Shown here in pieces: positions 54,866 to 60,850 of a DNA stretch of 64,000 nucleotides. Origin of the DNA: Chloroflexota bacterium (lineage in GTDB: Bacteria > Chloroflexota > Anaerolineae > Anaerolineales > Villigracilaceae); the NCBI GenBank assembly GCA_016234485.1, contig JACRBL010000022.1, positions 25,400 to 89,399 on the forward strand. The letters are read 5' to 3'. Within the stretch, counting starts at the first letter, position 1. Each line of letters opens with the position of its first letter. The translations under genes were made by a program, and so were the position numbers. The notes beneath the pieces are model-generated. The model did no database searches. It saw only the letters and a list, made by a program, of their open reading frames with translations, and was not told the DNA's origin.

Positions 54866-57298
54866 CTACTGCACCGTGATCTGGGTGTAGACGGGATATT
54901 GATTCCCGTCCAGGTCTTCGACGATGAACCCGATGACGTAATTGCCAGCGGCAGCGTAGAGTTCCACCCAGGTGAAGGGCTGGGCGCCGAAGGTGAGCGT
55001 GCGGGCTTGCTCGCGCGCCGTCCCTGTGACTGTACCGTTGGCGTCCACATCCATCCATGTTTCGTAGATGGTGAACGTGTCGCCGCGGGTTGGCGTGATC
55101 TCGCGCGGCGCGCCAGCGGCCTCGTCGCCGTTGAAACCGTAGACCGCCACCAGTTTCGCGTCCTGGAAGCGCAACTGGGCGAACTGCGATTCTCCCGTCT
55201 CGGCGAAGGTGTAGAGGCCGTCCACGGTGTAGGACGCGGTGGCCGCGTCCACGCCGTAGGAATCGGGGTTGAAGAGCGCCACCGCGTCCTGCGTCCCGTC
55301 GCTGATGCCGAAGACGATCGGATCCCACGTAAAGTTGAGCGTGAAGCCGTTTTCGTCCCACACGGGATAATAGACGTCGTTCACGTTTTTCGTCTCGGGG
55401 CTTTCGAGGAAGTCGGTATCGGTCACGTTCAGTGAGTTGGCGTTCGCGTCAAAGTAGCCGACGAAGAGATAGATGTAGCCGATGTTCGAGCCGCTGATGT
55501 CCACGCTCAAGTTCACGGATTGATTCGTCGCGATCGAGTTGGCGGAGGCGCGAATATCCGAAATCACGATCTCGCCCTGTCCAGGCGCGCGGACCGTCCT
55601 TCCACTCGGAGGGACGTAGGGCGTCGCGTCGGAGGGACTGAACTCGCGGTCGTAATAGTGATAGGCGAGGAAGTCGTCCCACAACGACACGGACGCGAAA
55701 CGGTTCGCGATGGACGTGTACGATTGAGGTCCCGTGACGGGCGAACTGTACAGCGTGGAGTTCGGGAAGTAGACGGCCAGCCCCGTAGAGCCTTTGCGCG
55801 CGCTGCCGTGTTTTTCAGCCACCACTGAGTTCTTCAACGCCGCGATTACCGCGTCGGCCGATTGGCTGATCTTTGCGTTCTTCGTGTTGGTCTTGACCAA
55901 TAACGTGAAGTGTCCCAGATCAATGTACGAAGCGGGGACTTCCTTCCCGAAGATGCTGGTGTACGACTGGGCGTAGTTGCGCGCCTGCGCCACCGTGCGT
56001 TGGTCTTCGTTGCGGAGTTGATAAACGAAATCGTTGTAGGCCGTCATCAGACCGCTGAACGCGTTGAGGTCCACTGCGGTGAGGGTCACGTCGCGGCTGA
56101 GTTGCGAGGCCACCTGTTCCGCGGAGGCGAGCGACCCACTGCCGAAGAAACTGCCGAGGGGCGAGCCGCCGCGCATAAATTCCGCGCGGGCCGCGGGGTC
56201 AAGCACGCGCTGGTCGTCCACGATGTAACCGTCCACGATGGATTTGCTCAACTGCGCGCCGCTCATATCGGGGTTCTGCACGAGGTCGCCGAGGAAACTC
56301 GCGTACGCCCAACCGATGGAGGGCTCGACTTCCTCCGACGCGACCGCGTAATTGGCGTGCGGCTGGAGCGCGGCCATCACTTCGACTTGCGCCATGAGAC
56401 AGGCGTCCATGCCGACGATCTCGAAGCGCTCGATGCCCGCCTCGCTGCGCGCCTGACCGAGGGCCGCGTCCAGCTCCGAGAGGAAGAGTTGGCTCCCCAG
56501 CCGCGCCGAAAGTGGCGAACTGTTATCGCCCGAATTTCCAGGGGCAGGATCGCTCCATCCGCCTGGCCAGCCCATGCCATGATCGGAGAGGACGAGCACA
56601 TATTTATCGGCGGGATAATTCTGCGCGGCCCACTTCACGAAGTCCACCAGAGTCTGTCCCTGCGACATGTCCACTTCGCCGAGGTCTTGAATCACTTCCG
56701 AGTGGACGACGTTGAGATCGTTGTCCTGCGTGATGAAGTAGCGACGTGTTGATGACCAGTTGCCGTCGCCGCTGAAGCCCGCGCGGAACCTATCCACCTG
56801 CGCGACGATGTTGACGTTGGCGCTCGAGCCGACGCGCTCGGCCTCGTTCAGGTCGAGATAGATATCGCGCTCCAACACCTGATCGTCGGCATCCTGATAG
56901 AGCATCACCGTCCACGTCTGCCCCGCGGATGCGGCAGGCGCGGGAGGCGTGAAGTTGGACTGTGGCAGTTCAGGCTCCGCGGTTTGGAAGCCCGTGTTAT
57001 CCTGCGGGATTCCGCCCGACCCGCCGAGGTCAATTCCGCCGCCATTGCTAAGCACAAAATACGCGACCAGCAAAAGGACTATAATGACAGTCCCACAGCC
57101 GCCGAGACGCGTTCCGCTCGAAAAGCCGCCGCCCGAGCTACCCGAATAACTTGGACGCGGCCCGCCGCCCGTCGAGCCCGACCCACTTGAGGGTTGGAAT
57201 CCGCCCGACGAACCTGTGTCGCGCCGCGGCGCGTCCGCGCGGCCAACGGGACCTTCACCCTTGCGTCTGCGATCTGCATTGATTTGACGTTTATTCAT
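54866..57298 (-). CDS. Clostripain-like (C11) cysteine peptidase, membrane-anchored
   Basis: 810 aa. The N-terminus is basic, then Gly/Ser-rich (SSGGFQPSSGSGSTGGG), then one helix (GTVIIVLLLVAYFVLS). The peptidase part has WTVMLYQDADDQVLERDIYL, the catalytic His in LVLSDHGMGWPGG and the Cys in IVGMDACLMAQVEV. A beta-sandwich C-terminal part follows (ATPYVPPSGRTVRAPGQGEI onward). Substrate is unknown; C11 proteases prefer Arg. It stands alone between terminators. Confidence 0.9.
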   Translation of the reverse strand: MNKRQINADRRRKGEGPVGRADAPRRDTGSSGGFQPSSGSGSTGGGPRPSYSGSSGGGFSSGTRLGGCGTVIIVLLLVAYFVLSNGGGIDLGGSGGIPQDNTGFQTAEPELPQSNFTPPAPAASAGQTWTVMLYQDADDQVLERDIYLDLNEAERVGSSANVNIVAQVDRFRAGFSGDGNWSSTRRYFITQDNDLNVVHSEVIQDLGEVDMSQGQTLVDFVKWAAQNYPADKYVLVLSDHGMGWPGGWSDPAPGNSGDNSSPLSARLGSQLFLSELDAALGQARSEAGIERFEIVGMDACLMAQVEVMAALQPHANYAVASEEVEPSIGWAYASFLGDLVQNPDMSGAQLSKSIVDGYIVDDQRVLDPAARAEFMRGGSPLGSFFGSGSLASAEQVASQLSRDVTLTAVDLNAFSGLMTAYNDFVYQLRNEDQRTVAQARNYAQSYTSIFGKEVPASYIDLGHFTLLVKTNTKNAKISQSADAVIAALKNSVVAEKHGSARKGSTGLAVYFPNSTLYSSPVTGPQSYTSIANRFASVSLWDDFLAYHYYDREFSPSDATPYVPPSGRTVRAPGQGEIVISDIRASANSIATNQSVNLSVDISGSNIGYIYLFVGYFDANANSLNVTDTDFLESPETKNVNDVYYPVWDENGFTLNFTWDPIVFGISDGTQDAVALFNPDSYGVDAATASYTVDGLYTFAETGESQFAQLRFQDAKLVAVYGFNGDEAAGAPREITPTRGDTFTIYETWMDVDANGTVTGTAREQARTLTFGAQPFTWVELYAAAGNYVIGFIVEDLDGNQYPVYTQITVQ

Positions 57299-57922: not shown

Positions 57923-58498
57923 CTATTTTTTAATTCCAAAAATATCCTGCTCCGTCACCACCCACTGCACAGTGACATCATGCGCGCCATGCGGAATCAA
58001 ATCCAGCCACAGGTCGTGGAAGACGATCCCCGCGCTGAGGCCGCGAAAGCGACTCAGGAAGCGGTCATAGTAGCCGCCGCCGTAGCCGAGACGATAGCCG
58101 CGGCGGTCGTAGGCGAGGCCGGGGACGAGGGTCAGCTCAATCTCGTCCGCCGCGAGGGTAGGCGCATCGGGCGTTGGCTCCATCATGCCGAAGGGATGCT
58201 GGATCAGGCGCGCCGCGTCGTAGCGATGAAAGTCCATGCGATGGTTTTCTTCGGGACGGATGCGCGGCAAGACCCAGCGTTTCTGCGGAAAGCGTTCCAA
58301 CAGCGGCGTTAAATCCACTTCAGATTTAATCGGCATGTAGGTGAGGATGGTTTCGCTTGCCGTGAACATCGTCCACGCGGCGAGGCGCTTGCAGATGGCG
58401 AGGCTCGCTCGTGCGCGTCCCATCTCGCCCAGCGCCTTGCGCGCCGCGCGACATTCCTTGCGGAGTTGAATCTTTTGCTCGGCGATGAGATCGTCCAT
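57923..58498 (-). CDS. 5-formyltetrahydrofolate cyclo-ligase
   Basis: 191 aa from the ATG at 58498. EQKIQLRKECRAARKALGEM, TYMPIKSEVDLTPLL, then LVPGLAYDRRGYRLGYGGGYYDRFL are the family blocks, with the ATP/folate loop GYRLGYGGG. It turns 5-formyl-THF back into 5,10-methenyl-THF. The folate link to ThyX is metabolic, not positional. Confidence 0.95.
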   Translation of the reverse strand: MDDLIAEQKIQLRKECRAARKALGEMGRARASLAICKRLAAWTMFTASETILTYMPIKSEVDLTPLLERFPQKRWVLPRIRPEENHRMDFHRYDAARLIQHPFGMMEPTPDAPTLAADEIELTLVPGLAYDRRGYRLGYGGGYYDRFLSRFRGLSAGIVFHDLWLDLIPHGAHDVTVQWVVTEQDIFGIKK

Positions 58499-58633
58499 GC
58501 GAGGGATTGTACTCCCAAGAGGGAGGACATTAGGGTCTTTGCCTTCCCCAAAACGTGACATTTGACAGCCAGGTTTTGGATTTACCGCCCACCCATTTGC
58601 AGTAGAATCAATTCAGAAATGGAAAGGCACAAC

Positions 58634-60850
58634 ATGACAAAACGAATTGGAGTTCTCACCAGCGGGGGCGACGCGCAAGGCATGAACGCGGCCGTGCGCG
58701 CCATCGTCCGCACCGCGATTGACCGAGGCGCCGAAGTGTTCGCCATCTACGAAGGCTATCAAGGCCTGGTGGACGACGGCGACTATATTAAAAAAATGGA
58801 TTGGGATTCGGTCGGGGGAATCCTTCAGTTGGGCGGAACCGTCATCGGCTCGGCGCGCTGCGATGAGTTTCGCACGCGCGAAGGCCGTTTGAAGTCCGCG
58901 AAGAATCTCGTCAAGGCAGGCATAGACGGCTTGATCGTCATCGGCGGCGACGGCTCCCTCACGGGCGCGAACGTCTTCCGTCAAGAATGGCCGTCGCTGA
59001 TCGCCGAACTCGTGGGGATGGGCGAAGTCAGCGCGCAGGGAGCGGCGGAATATCCGAACTTCTCCATTGTGGGATTGGTCGGCTCGATTGACAACGACTT
59101 CACTGGCACCGACATGACCATCGGCGCGGACACGGCCCTGCATCGCATCACCGAAGCGGTGGACGCCATCACCAGCACGGCGGCGAGTCATCAGCGCACG
59201 TTCGTCGTCAAAGTGATGGGACGCAACTGCGGCTACCTGGCGCTGATGGGCGCGCTGGCCTGCGGCGCGGACTGGGTGCTGATTCCCGAAGCGCCGCCCG
59301 ACGTGGAAAACTGGGGCGACGTGATGACCGAACGCCTGCGCGCGGGACGGAAAGCGGGTCGCCGCGACAGCATCGTGATCCTCGCGGAGGGCGCGCGCGA
59401 CCGCCACGGAAATTACATCGGCAGTAGCGACGTGCAACGCGTGTTAGAGGAGAAACTCAACGAAGAAGTGCGCGTGACCATGCTCGGACACGTCCAACGC
59501 GGCGGCAAGCCAAGCGCCTTCGACCGCACGCTCAGCACGTTGATGGGCTACGAGGCCGTGAAAGCCATCCTCGAAGCAAAACCCGAAGACGAGCCTGTCG
59601 TGATCGGCATCCGCAACAACCGTATGACGCGCCTGCCGCTGATGGAAAGCGTCCGCAAGACGCAAGCCGTGGCCGAAGCCGTGAACGCGGGCGATTACGA
59701 GCGCGCCATGTCATTGCGGAGTTCATCTTTCAAGGACGCGTTCAACACGTTCAAGACGATGGTGCGCGCCCTGCCCCATCCCGTGGAGCCGACGAAAAAA
59801 CGCTTCCGCATTGCGGTACTGAATGCGGGCGCGCCGTCGCCGGGGATGAACACTGCGGGACGCGCCGCCATCCGCCTCGGCATGGACGCGGGGCACGTGA
59901 TGCTGGGAGTCCGCAACGGATTCGAGGGGCTGATGGATGACGATGTGGAAGAGATGACCTGGATGAGCGTGAGCGGCTGGGCATCACGCGGCGGCTCGGC
60001 GTTGGGGACGACGCGGCGGGTCCCGAAAGGACGCGACCTGTATGCCATCGCGCGCGTGATCGAAGACCGTCACATTGACGCGTTGTTGGTCATCGGCGGG
60101 TGGAACGCCTACGAAGCCGCGTTCAGCATGTTGACGAACCGTCCCAACTTCCCGTCGTTCAACATCCCGATGATCTGCCTGCCCGCTTCGATCAACAACA
60201 ACCTGCCTGGCTCCGAGTTCAGCATCGGCGCGGATACGGCCCTCAACAGCATCGTGGACGCGGTGGACAAGATCAAACAGTCGGCGGTGGCCACGCGGCG
60301 TTGCTTCGTGGTGGAAGTGATGGGAAATTATTGCGGCTATCTCGCGTTGATGGGCGGCATGGCCACGGGCGCGGAACGCGTGTACCTGCACGAGGAGGGC
60401 GTGCGCCTGCGCGACCTGCAATTGGACGTGGAAAAACTGCTGGACGGATTCAACTCGGGCAAGCGCCTGGGGCTGATGATCCGCAACGAGCGGGCGAACG
60501 AAGTCTACAACACGGAGTTCATCTGCTCGCTGTTCGAGGAGGAAGGCCGCGACGTGTTCGACGTGCGCCCCGCCATCCTCGGCCACCTGCAACAAGGCGG
60601 CGACCCATCTCCGTTCGACCGCATCCAGGCCACCCGTCTCGCGCGCATGTGCCTGGAATATTTGATCGGCCAATGCGAGAAGCAGGAATTCAACAGTTCG
60701 TTCATCGGGATGCAAAAGGGCGCGATCCACTTCCACGATCTGCGCGACTTCGACCGCATGATAGACGGCGAGCATCAACGTCCCAAAGAACAATGGTGGC
60801 TGGAGTTGAAAAGTATCGCCAGCCTGCTGGCGTTGCAGGCGCCGAAGTGA
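58634..60850 (+). CDS. pfkA: Tandem (eukaryote-type) 6-phosphofructokinase
   Basis: 738 aa from the ATG at 58634 (GGAAAGG upstream). Two PFK domains: the first keeps GGDGSLTGA, the catalytic GSIDNDFTGTDMTIGADTAL and MGRNCGYLAL. The second has GGWNAYEA in place of GGDGS and PASINNNLPGSEFSIGADTAL in place of the catalytic Asp (D to N), then EVMGNYCGYLALMGG and LGHLQQGGDPSPFDR. This is the layout of animal and fungal PFK, where the second half binds the allosteric activator. It phosphorylates fructose 6-phosphate. Confidence 0.95.
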   Translation: MTKRIGVLTSGGDAQGMNAAVRAIVRTAIDRGAEVFAIYEGYQGLVDDGDYIKKMDWDSVGGILQLGGTVIGSARCDEFRTREGRLKSAKNLVKAGIDGLIVIGGDGSLTGANVFRQEWPSLIAELVGMGEVSAQGAAEYPNFSIVGLVGSIDNDFTGTDMTIGADTALHRITEAVDAITSTAASHQRTFVVKVMGRNCGYLALMGALACGADWVLIPEAPPDVENWGDVMTERLRAGRKAGRRDSIVILAEGARDRHGNYIGSSDVQRVLEEKLNEEVRVTMLGHVQRGGKPSAFDRTLSTLMGYEAVKAILEAKPEDEPVVIGIRNNRMTRLPLMESVRKTQAVAEAVNAGDYERAMSLRSSSFKDAFNTFKTMVRALPHPVEPTKKRFRIAVLNAGAPSPGMNTAGRAAIRLGMDAGHVMLGVRNGFEGLMDDDVEEMTWMSVSGWASRGGSALGTTRRVPKGRDLYAIARVIEDRHIDALLVIGGWNAYEAAFSMLTNRPNFPSFNIPMICLPASINNNLPGSEFSIGADTALNSIVDAVDKIKQSAVATRRCFVVEVMGNYCGYLALMGGMATGAERVYLHEEGVRLRDLQLDVEKLLDGFNSGKRLGLMIRNERANEVYNTEFICSLFEEEGRDVFDVRPAILGHLQQGGDPSPFDRIQATRLARMCLEYLIGQCEKQEFNSSFIGMQKGAIHFHDLRDFDRMIDGEHQRPKEQWWLELKSIASLLALQAPK

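Follow-up and report, generated by a model that had tools for sequence, protein, structure and literature searches.

A bacterial tandem phosphofructokinase of the eukaryote type in Chloroflexota, and the likely bacterial origin of its two halves

Phosphofructokinase-1 (PFK-1) is the textbook case of a new regulated enzyme arising from gene doubling, and that doubling is usually placed in eukaryotes. A 2025 review still assigns it to the eukaryotic PFKs (PMC12203962). In the animal and fungal family (TIGR02478, IPR009161; structures of human PFKL, 8w2g, rabbit PFKM, 3o8l, and yeast PFK, 3o8o), an N-terminal catalytic half is joined in tandem to a degenerate C-terminal half with a sugar-phosphate pocket. 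The short bacterial ATP-PFKs (PfkA, TIGR02482, as in Geobacillus and E. coli) are single units of ~320 amino acids without a C-terminal regulatory half.

The closest described bacterial relative of the gene reported here is Cagg_2702 of Chloroflexus aggregans, a 747-amino-acid protein assigned to 6PF1K_euk in a 2021 paper, which noted homologues in many Chloroflexota and a general absence from other bacteria and found the gene to be weakly transcribed (TPM 9, versus 1312 for the short PFK of C. aggregans) (PMC8004040). That paper contains neither a phylogeny nor an analysis of the halves, and it does not mention the deeper bacterial clade called T2 below; a search of open-access full text found no other paper on such bacterial genes. 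Since the presence of tandem PFKs in Chloroflexota was already on record there, it is not new, and the gene described here adds a member to a known family; it shares family and phylum with Cagg_2702, but its host belongs to a different class of Chloroflexota. The interest lies instead in the evidence for a bacterial origin of the two-half enzyme, as bacterial tandem PFKs that branch before those of animals and fungi would shift the doubling event into bacteria.

A eukaryote-type gene on a bacterial contig

The window, by which we mean the whole 64,000-nucleotide stretch analyzed (G000:C68:25400-89399), lies on an 89-kb contig of a 68-contig draft genome (4.46 Mb, 94% complete). An open frame at 58562-60850 on the plus strand could encode 762 amino acids, but the ATG at 58634 is the likelier start because a putative ribosome-binding site lies just before it. 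The features are as follows.

58621..58627, plus strand: putative ribosome-binding site GGAAAGG, ahead of ATG 58634, read directly from the sequence
58634..60850, plus strand: tandem (eukaryote-type) ATP-dependent 6-phosphofructokinase, 738 amino acids, from TIGR02478, two PF00365 domains, identity to mammalian PFK and an AlphaFold2 model
58634..59716, plus strand: N half, residues 1-361, catalytic half by alignment of catalytic residues
59795..60847, plus strand: C half, residues 388-738, probable regulatory half by residue alignment

The 6PF1K_euk model TIGR02478 matched residues 3-733 along profile positions 1-740 of 744 (E = 0, 1017.2 bits, against a curated cut-off of 708.4), so that a single family covers the whole protein, within which two PF00365 domains lie in tandem on one chain. 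The top solved relatives, matched at full length, were rabbit muscle and human platelet PFK, at 797.9 and 795.1 bits respectively. Pairwise identity was 51% to each of three mammalian forms and 43-45% to four yeast subunits; mammalian and yeast PFKs are 43-46% identical to each other. The AlphaFold2 model, built from 30 bacterial sequences, had a pLDDT of 91.9 and a pTM of 0.92 and superposed on human liver PFK (8w2g) with a TM score of 0.97 (rmsd 1.4 over 745 columns), the model and the PDB matches both spanning the full length. The first-pass annotation had proposed a eukaryote-type tandem PFK in a bacterium and had quoted motifs strikingly close to those of eukaryotic PFK. Both points hold: SINNNL, GGWNAYEA, IRNERANEVYNTEF and GHLQQGGDPSPFDR are all present in the protein, and by family model, architecture, fold and residues it is a genuine bacterial member of the eukaryote-type tandem family, sharing duplication as well as fold with PFK-1 of animals and fungi.

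The neighbors of the gene are ordinary bacterial genes. A diverging gene at 57923-58561, which we take to be 5-formyltetrahydrofolate cyclo-ligase-like, adjoins it, a large protease-like gene is another neighbor, and farther upstream are what are presumably rplT, infC and thrS. Two genes from the PFK gene, an 810-amino-acid gene on the minus strand (54866-57298) resembles a clostripain-like protease.

Contamination of a metagenome-assembled genome by eukaryotic sequence has to be considered for a draft in 68 contigs, but we rejected it as next to inconceivable. The gene has no introns and sits inside a bacterial contig among bacterial neighbors, copies 71-89% identical to it occur in many independent genomes (the copy from Anaerolineales UBA7227 is 87% identical), and the family is also carried by one-contig genomes such as G170, G288 and G217. 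Matches above the TIGR02478 cut-off were found in 21 of 61 relatives and in 144 of the 396 genomes of a class sample (147 at E<=1e-120), and the sample of the phylum Chloroflexota yielded tandem PFKs in 42 of 400 genomes. None was found in 299 Pseudomonadota genomes, in a search run without a positive control, and the matches returned by a plasmid search for tandem PFKs look like short PFKs.

A catalytic half and a probable regulatory half

Every catalytic and fructose 6-phosphate (F6P) residue examined is retained in the N half, where the catalytic residues are the same as those of the short bacterial ATP-PFKs. D106, S151, D153, D155, R188, M195, R197, E252, R280, H286 and R289 are all present and do not vary across an alignment of 30 bacterial tandem PFKs, and G107 and G150 are donor-site residues of the ATP type. 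Because the catalytic residues are conserved, the N half is predicted to phosphorylate F6P with ATP.

In the C half the catalytic Asp is replaced by Asn (SINNN, N521) and GGDGS has become GGWNA. This half had been said to carry the Asp change in the same way as the regulatory half of animals and fungi, which is right as to the loss of the catalytic Asp, common to both, but not as to the replacing residue: the window protein reads INNN (Asp to Asn), whereas mammalian and fungal enzymes read VSNN, ISNN or LSNN (Asp to Ser). At residue 654 (R252 in Geobacillus numbering) Arg is replaced by Gln, as in eukaryotes. K548, R556, M563, E619, R645 and H651 are kept (K557, R566, M573, E629, R655 and H661 in rabbit), and all of these but K548 are F6P-site counterparts that form the sugar-phosphate effector pocket in eukaryotes. 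Of the ancestral effector site, the bacterial C half also retains Arg21, Arg25, Lys154, Glu187 and Lys213 (Geobacillus numbering), and several of these residues are no longer found in eukaryotes; E581 and the Lys at the Gst 213 position are among the effector residues by which the window C half is more ancestral than the eukaryotic one. The C half would thus be catalytically dead while keeping the sugar-phosphate pocket along with some of the ancestral nucleotide/PEP effector site, and it is probably a regulatory half, judging from its residues, because the catalytic Asp is gone and the sugar-phosphate ligands are kept.

Two regulatory elements of the vertebrate enzymes are absent from the window protein. 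It ends near rabbit residue 758, while mammalian chains reach 780, and so lacks the C-terminal tail of roughly 20 residues that stabilizes the T state in mammals (PMC12203962). At the position of the Lys of the vertebrate citrate site (PFK-M 617) it has N607, K617 being found only in vertebrates (PMC2990764).

The hosts of this enzyme are bacteria, and the PFK-2 kinase domain (PF01591) was found in none of 17 carrier genomes, in a search whose control set held no eukaryote. For that reason the ligand is unlikely to be fructose 2,6-bisphosphate, and regulation of the window enzyme by this compound is doubtful; the C half would more probably bind fructose 1,6-bisphosphate or another bacterial metabolite. 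This raises the question of what occupies a "fructose 2,6-bisphosphate" pocket in cells that probably do without that signal.

One duplication, and the placement of the eukaryotic enzymes

In a first tree of split halves, in which the bacterial and eukaryotic halves were placed together with 30 short PFKs, all C halves formed one clade (support 100) apart from the N halves, with the eukaryotes inside each group. In the main set of 75 sequences, all N halves formed a clade at 100 and all C halves another at 100, with the short PFKs apart. The bacterial and eukaryotic tandem genes thus come from one duplication, and it is well supported that the gene was doubled, fused and silenced in its C half just once. 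A phylogeny of both halves with eukaryotic PFK was the check that the first-pass annotation had put forward, and it bears that annotation out: the two clades rule out that the Chloroflexota gene doubled recently and separately from that of eukaryotes. Convergence after separate duplications in Chloroflexota and in eukaryotes might be entertained in that tandem fusion is generally easy for a tetrameric enzyme, but it is scarcely credible given the shared clades, an identity of ~50% along the whole length and the same losses in the C half, such as that of R252 to Gln.

The order of branching within the family was assessed from three groups, namely the tandem clade of the window (T1), a second, deeper bacterial tandem clade (T2) and the eukaryotes (E). 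In the first tree, one divergent bacterial sequence, L088, fell outside the eukaryotes and the remaining bacteria. A class-wide search revealed a whole clade of L088-like genes, T2, scoring at roughly 750-850 bits, and 19 T2 sequences beyond L088 were added, along with a further lineage, L111, which consists of one sequence. L088 and L111 both sit among bacterial genes such as the presumed ruvA, yebC, glpX, dnaE and mutL. As a single long branch in the first tree, L088 looked like a possible case of long-branch attraction, but the result held with the 19 further T2 sequences and L111, under the C20 model, with outgroups of short PFKs only, and without yeast and L111.

The grouping of E, T1 and L111 that leaves out T2 received a UFBoot support of 100 in both halves, whether under LG+R5 or under LG+C20+R4. 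When the halves were rooted separately by short PFKs alone, it received 100 (N) and 98 (C), and with yeast and L111 removed, E and T1 grouped at 100 in each half. Under C20, E and T1 grouped with a support of 88 (N) and 92 (C), and T1 was paraphyletic. Conserved derived residues, once polarized, were shared by E and T1 at seven sites (window positions 71, 115, 149, 401, 550, 614 and 654) and by E and T2 at none; the count for T1 and T2 was likewise zero, which is weaker than it appears because the long eukaryote branch makes a signature confined to bacteria harder to find. At five of these seven sites L111 shares the derived state, which makes it an intermediate in this respect.

That T2 lies outside E and T1 in both halves, together with the seven shared residues against none for either other pairing, suggests that the duplication arose in bacteria and was later passed to eukaryotes. 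The eukaryotes branch inside the bacterial tandem family, and here the evidence goes beyond what had first been noted. The gene would most likely have been doubled, fused and silenced in its C half within a bacterial lineage whose present-day representatives are Chloroflexota, with the ancestors of animals and fungi acquiring the tandem gene afterward, a sequence of events that is favored but not proven. For the explanation as a whole, a bacterial tandem PFK with a catalytic N half and a regulatory C half that derive from a single duplication, likely bacterial and earlier than the eukaryote acquisition, we would put the probability at about 0.75. We hold with somewhat less assurance, though still as the probable course, that the doubling and the regulatory half were made in Chloroflexota or a close lineage, that eukaryotes received a ready-made PFK-1, and that T2 and L111 represent intermediate steps. 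T2 and L111 would then be living intermediates in which the change from a catalytic site to an effector site could be tested.

The opposite direction of transfer, in which the tandem enzyme is eukaryotic in origin and was gained by Chloroflexota, there to spread and diversify, appears unlikely. It would fit a family that is textbook-eukaryotic and restricted among bacteria (PMC8004040), as well as the lack of matches in Pseudomonadota. Approximately unbiased (AU) tests give it some room, as bacterial monophyly was not rejected under LG+R5 (p = 0.058 for both halves, 0.157 for the N half and 0.36 for the C half); the test was significant under the C20 model only (p = 0.011 for both halves, against 0.119, not rejected, for the C half alone), where the constrained searches were short, which favors rejection. 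Under C20, the placement of E with T2 had a p value of 0.022. The transfer from eukaryotes is also at odds with the divergence of T2 and L111 before the split between eukaryotes and T1, seen for both in most analyses and for T2 in all of them and in both halves, and with the distribution of the signature residues and the intermediate state of L111. In addition, T2 retains the ancestral D at 401 and R at 654, both of which were lost in all sampled eukaryotes.

A third, as yet unsampled bacterial lineage might have supplied the tandem gene to both eukaryotes and Chloroflexota. The bacterial phyla searched systematically were Chloroflexota and Pseudomonadota only, and the eukaryotes stand on a long stem, but the sharp contrast between these two phyla and the fact that the deepest lineages found (T2, L093 and L111) all belong to Chloroflexota make such a source improbable. 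Some points weigh against the preferred reading of a bacterial duplication. The exact point of eukaryote attachment varies with half and model, falling at T1b in the N half (93-98), at L111 in the C half (90, LG+R5) and inside T1 under C20, so that T1b, L111 and the stem of T1 are all candidates, and the eukaryote sample was narrow, at seven proteins from two groups (three mammalian forms and four yeast subunits). The weak transcription of the C. aggregans homologue also counts against the explanation as a whole.

Tandem genes beside other phosphofructokinases

Four genomes (G694, G742, G745 and G761) carry two tandem genes each, one with a T1-like and one with a T2-like score, which indicates that paralogy, and not lineage variation alone, separates T1 from T2. 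One T2 gene (L092, G235:C175, 9756-14821) lies ~2 kb from a glpX-like gene for fructose-1,6-bisphosphatase, the enzyme of the opposite reaction.

The genome of the window has three different PFKs, since another of its contigs (G000:C27) encodes a short ATP-PFK of 347 amino acids and a mixed/PPi-like PFK with GGDD and PKTMDND motifs, besides the tandem gene. These two genes stand head to head (L060:1014-3342). Two other genomes (G023 and G045) have no match to the PFK-A models searched besides the tandem gene, so the tandem enzyme may be the working glycolytic PFK there. Elsewhere, the tandem PFK often lies beside a mixed/PPi-like PFK of ~400 amino acids (L020:4947-8416; also L034, L037, L039, L040, L043, L047 and L050). 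In L020 the two frames share a four-base overlap, suggesting that the ATP-type PFK and its PPi-type-looking neighbor are coupled as a pair.
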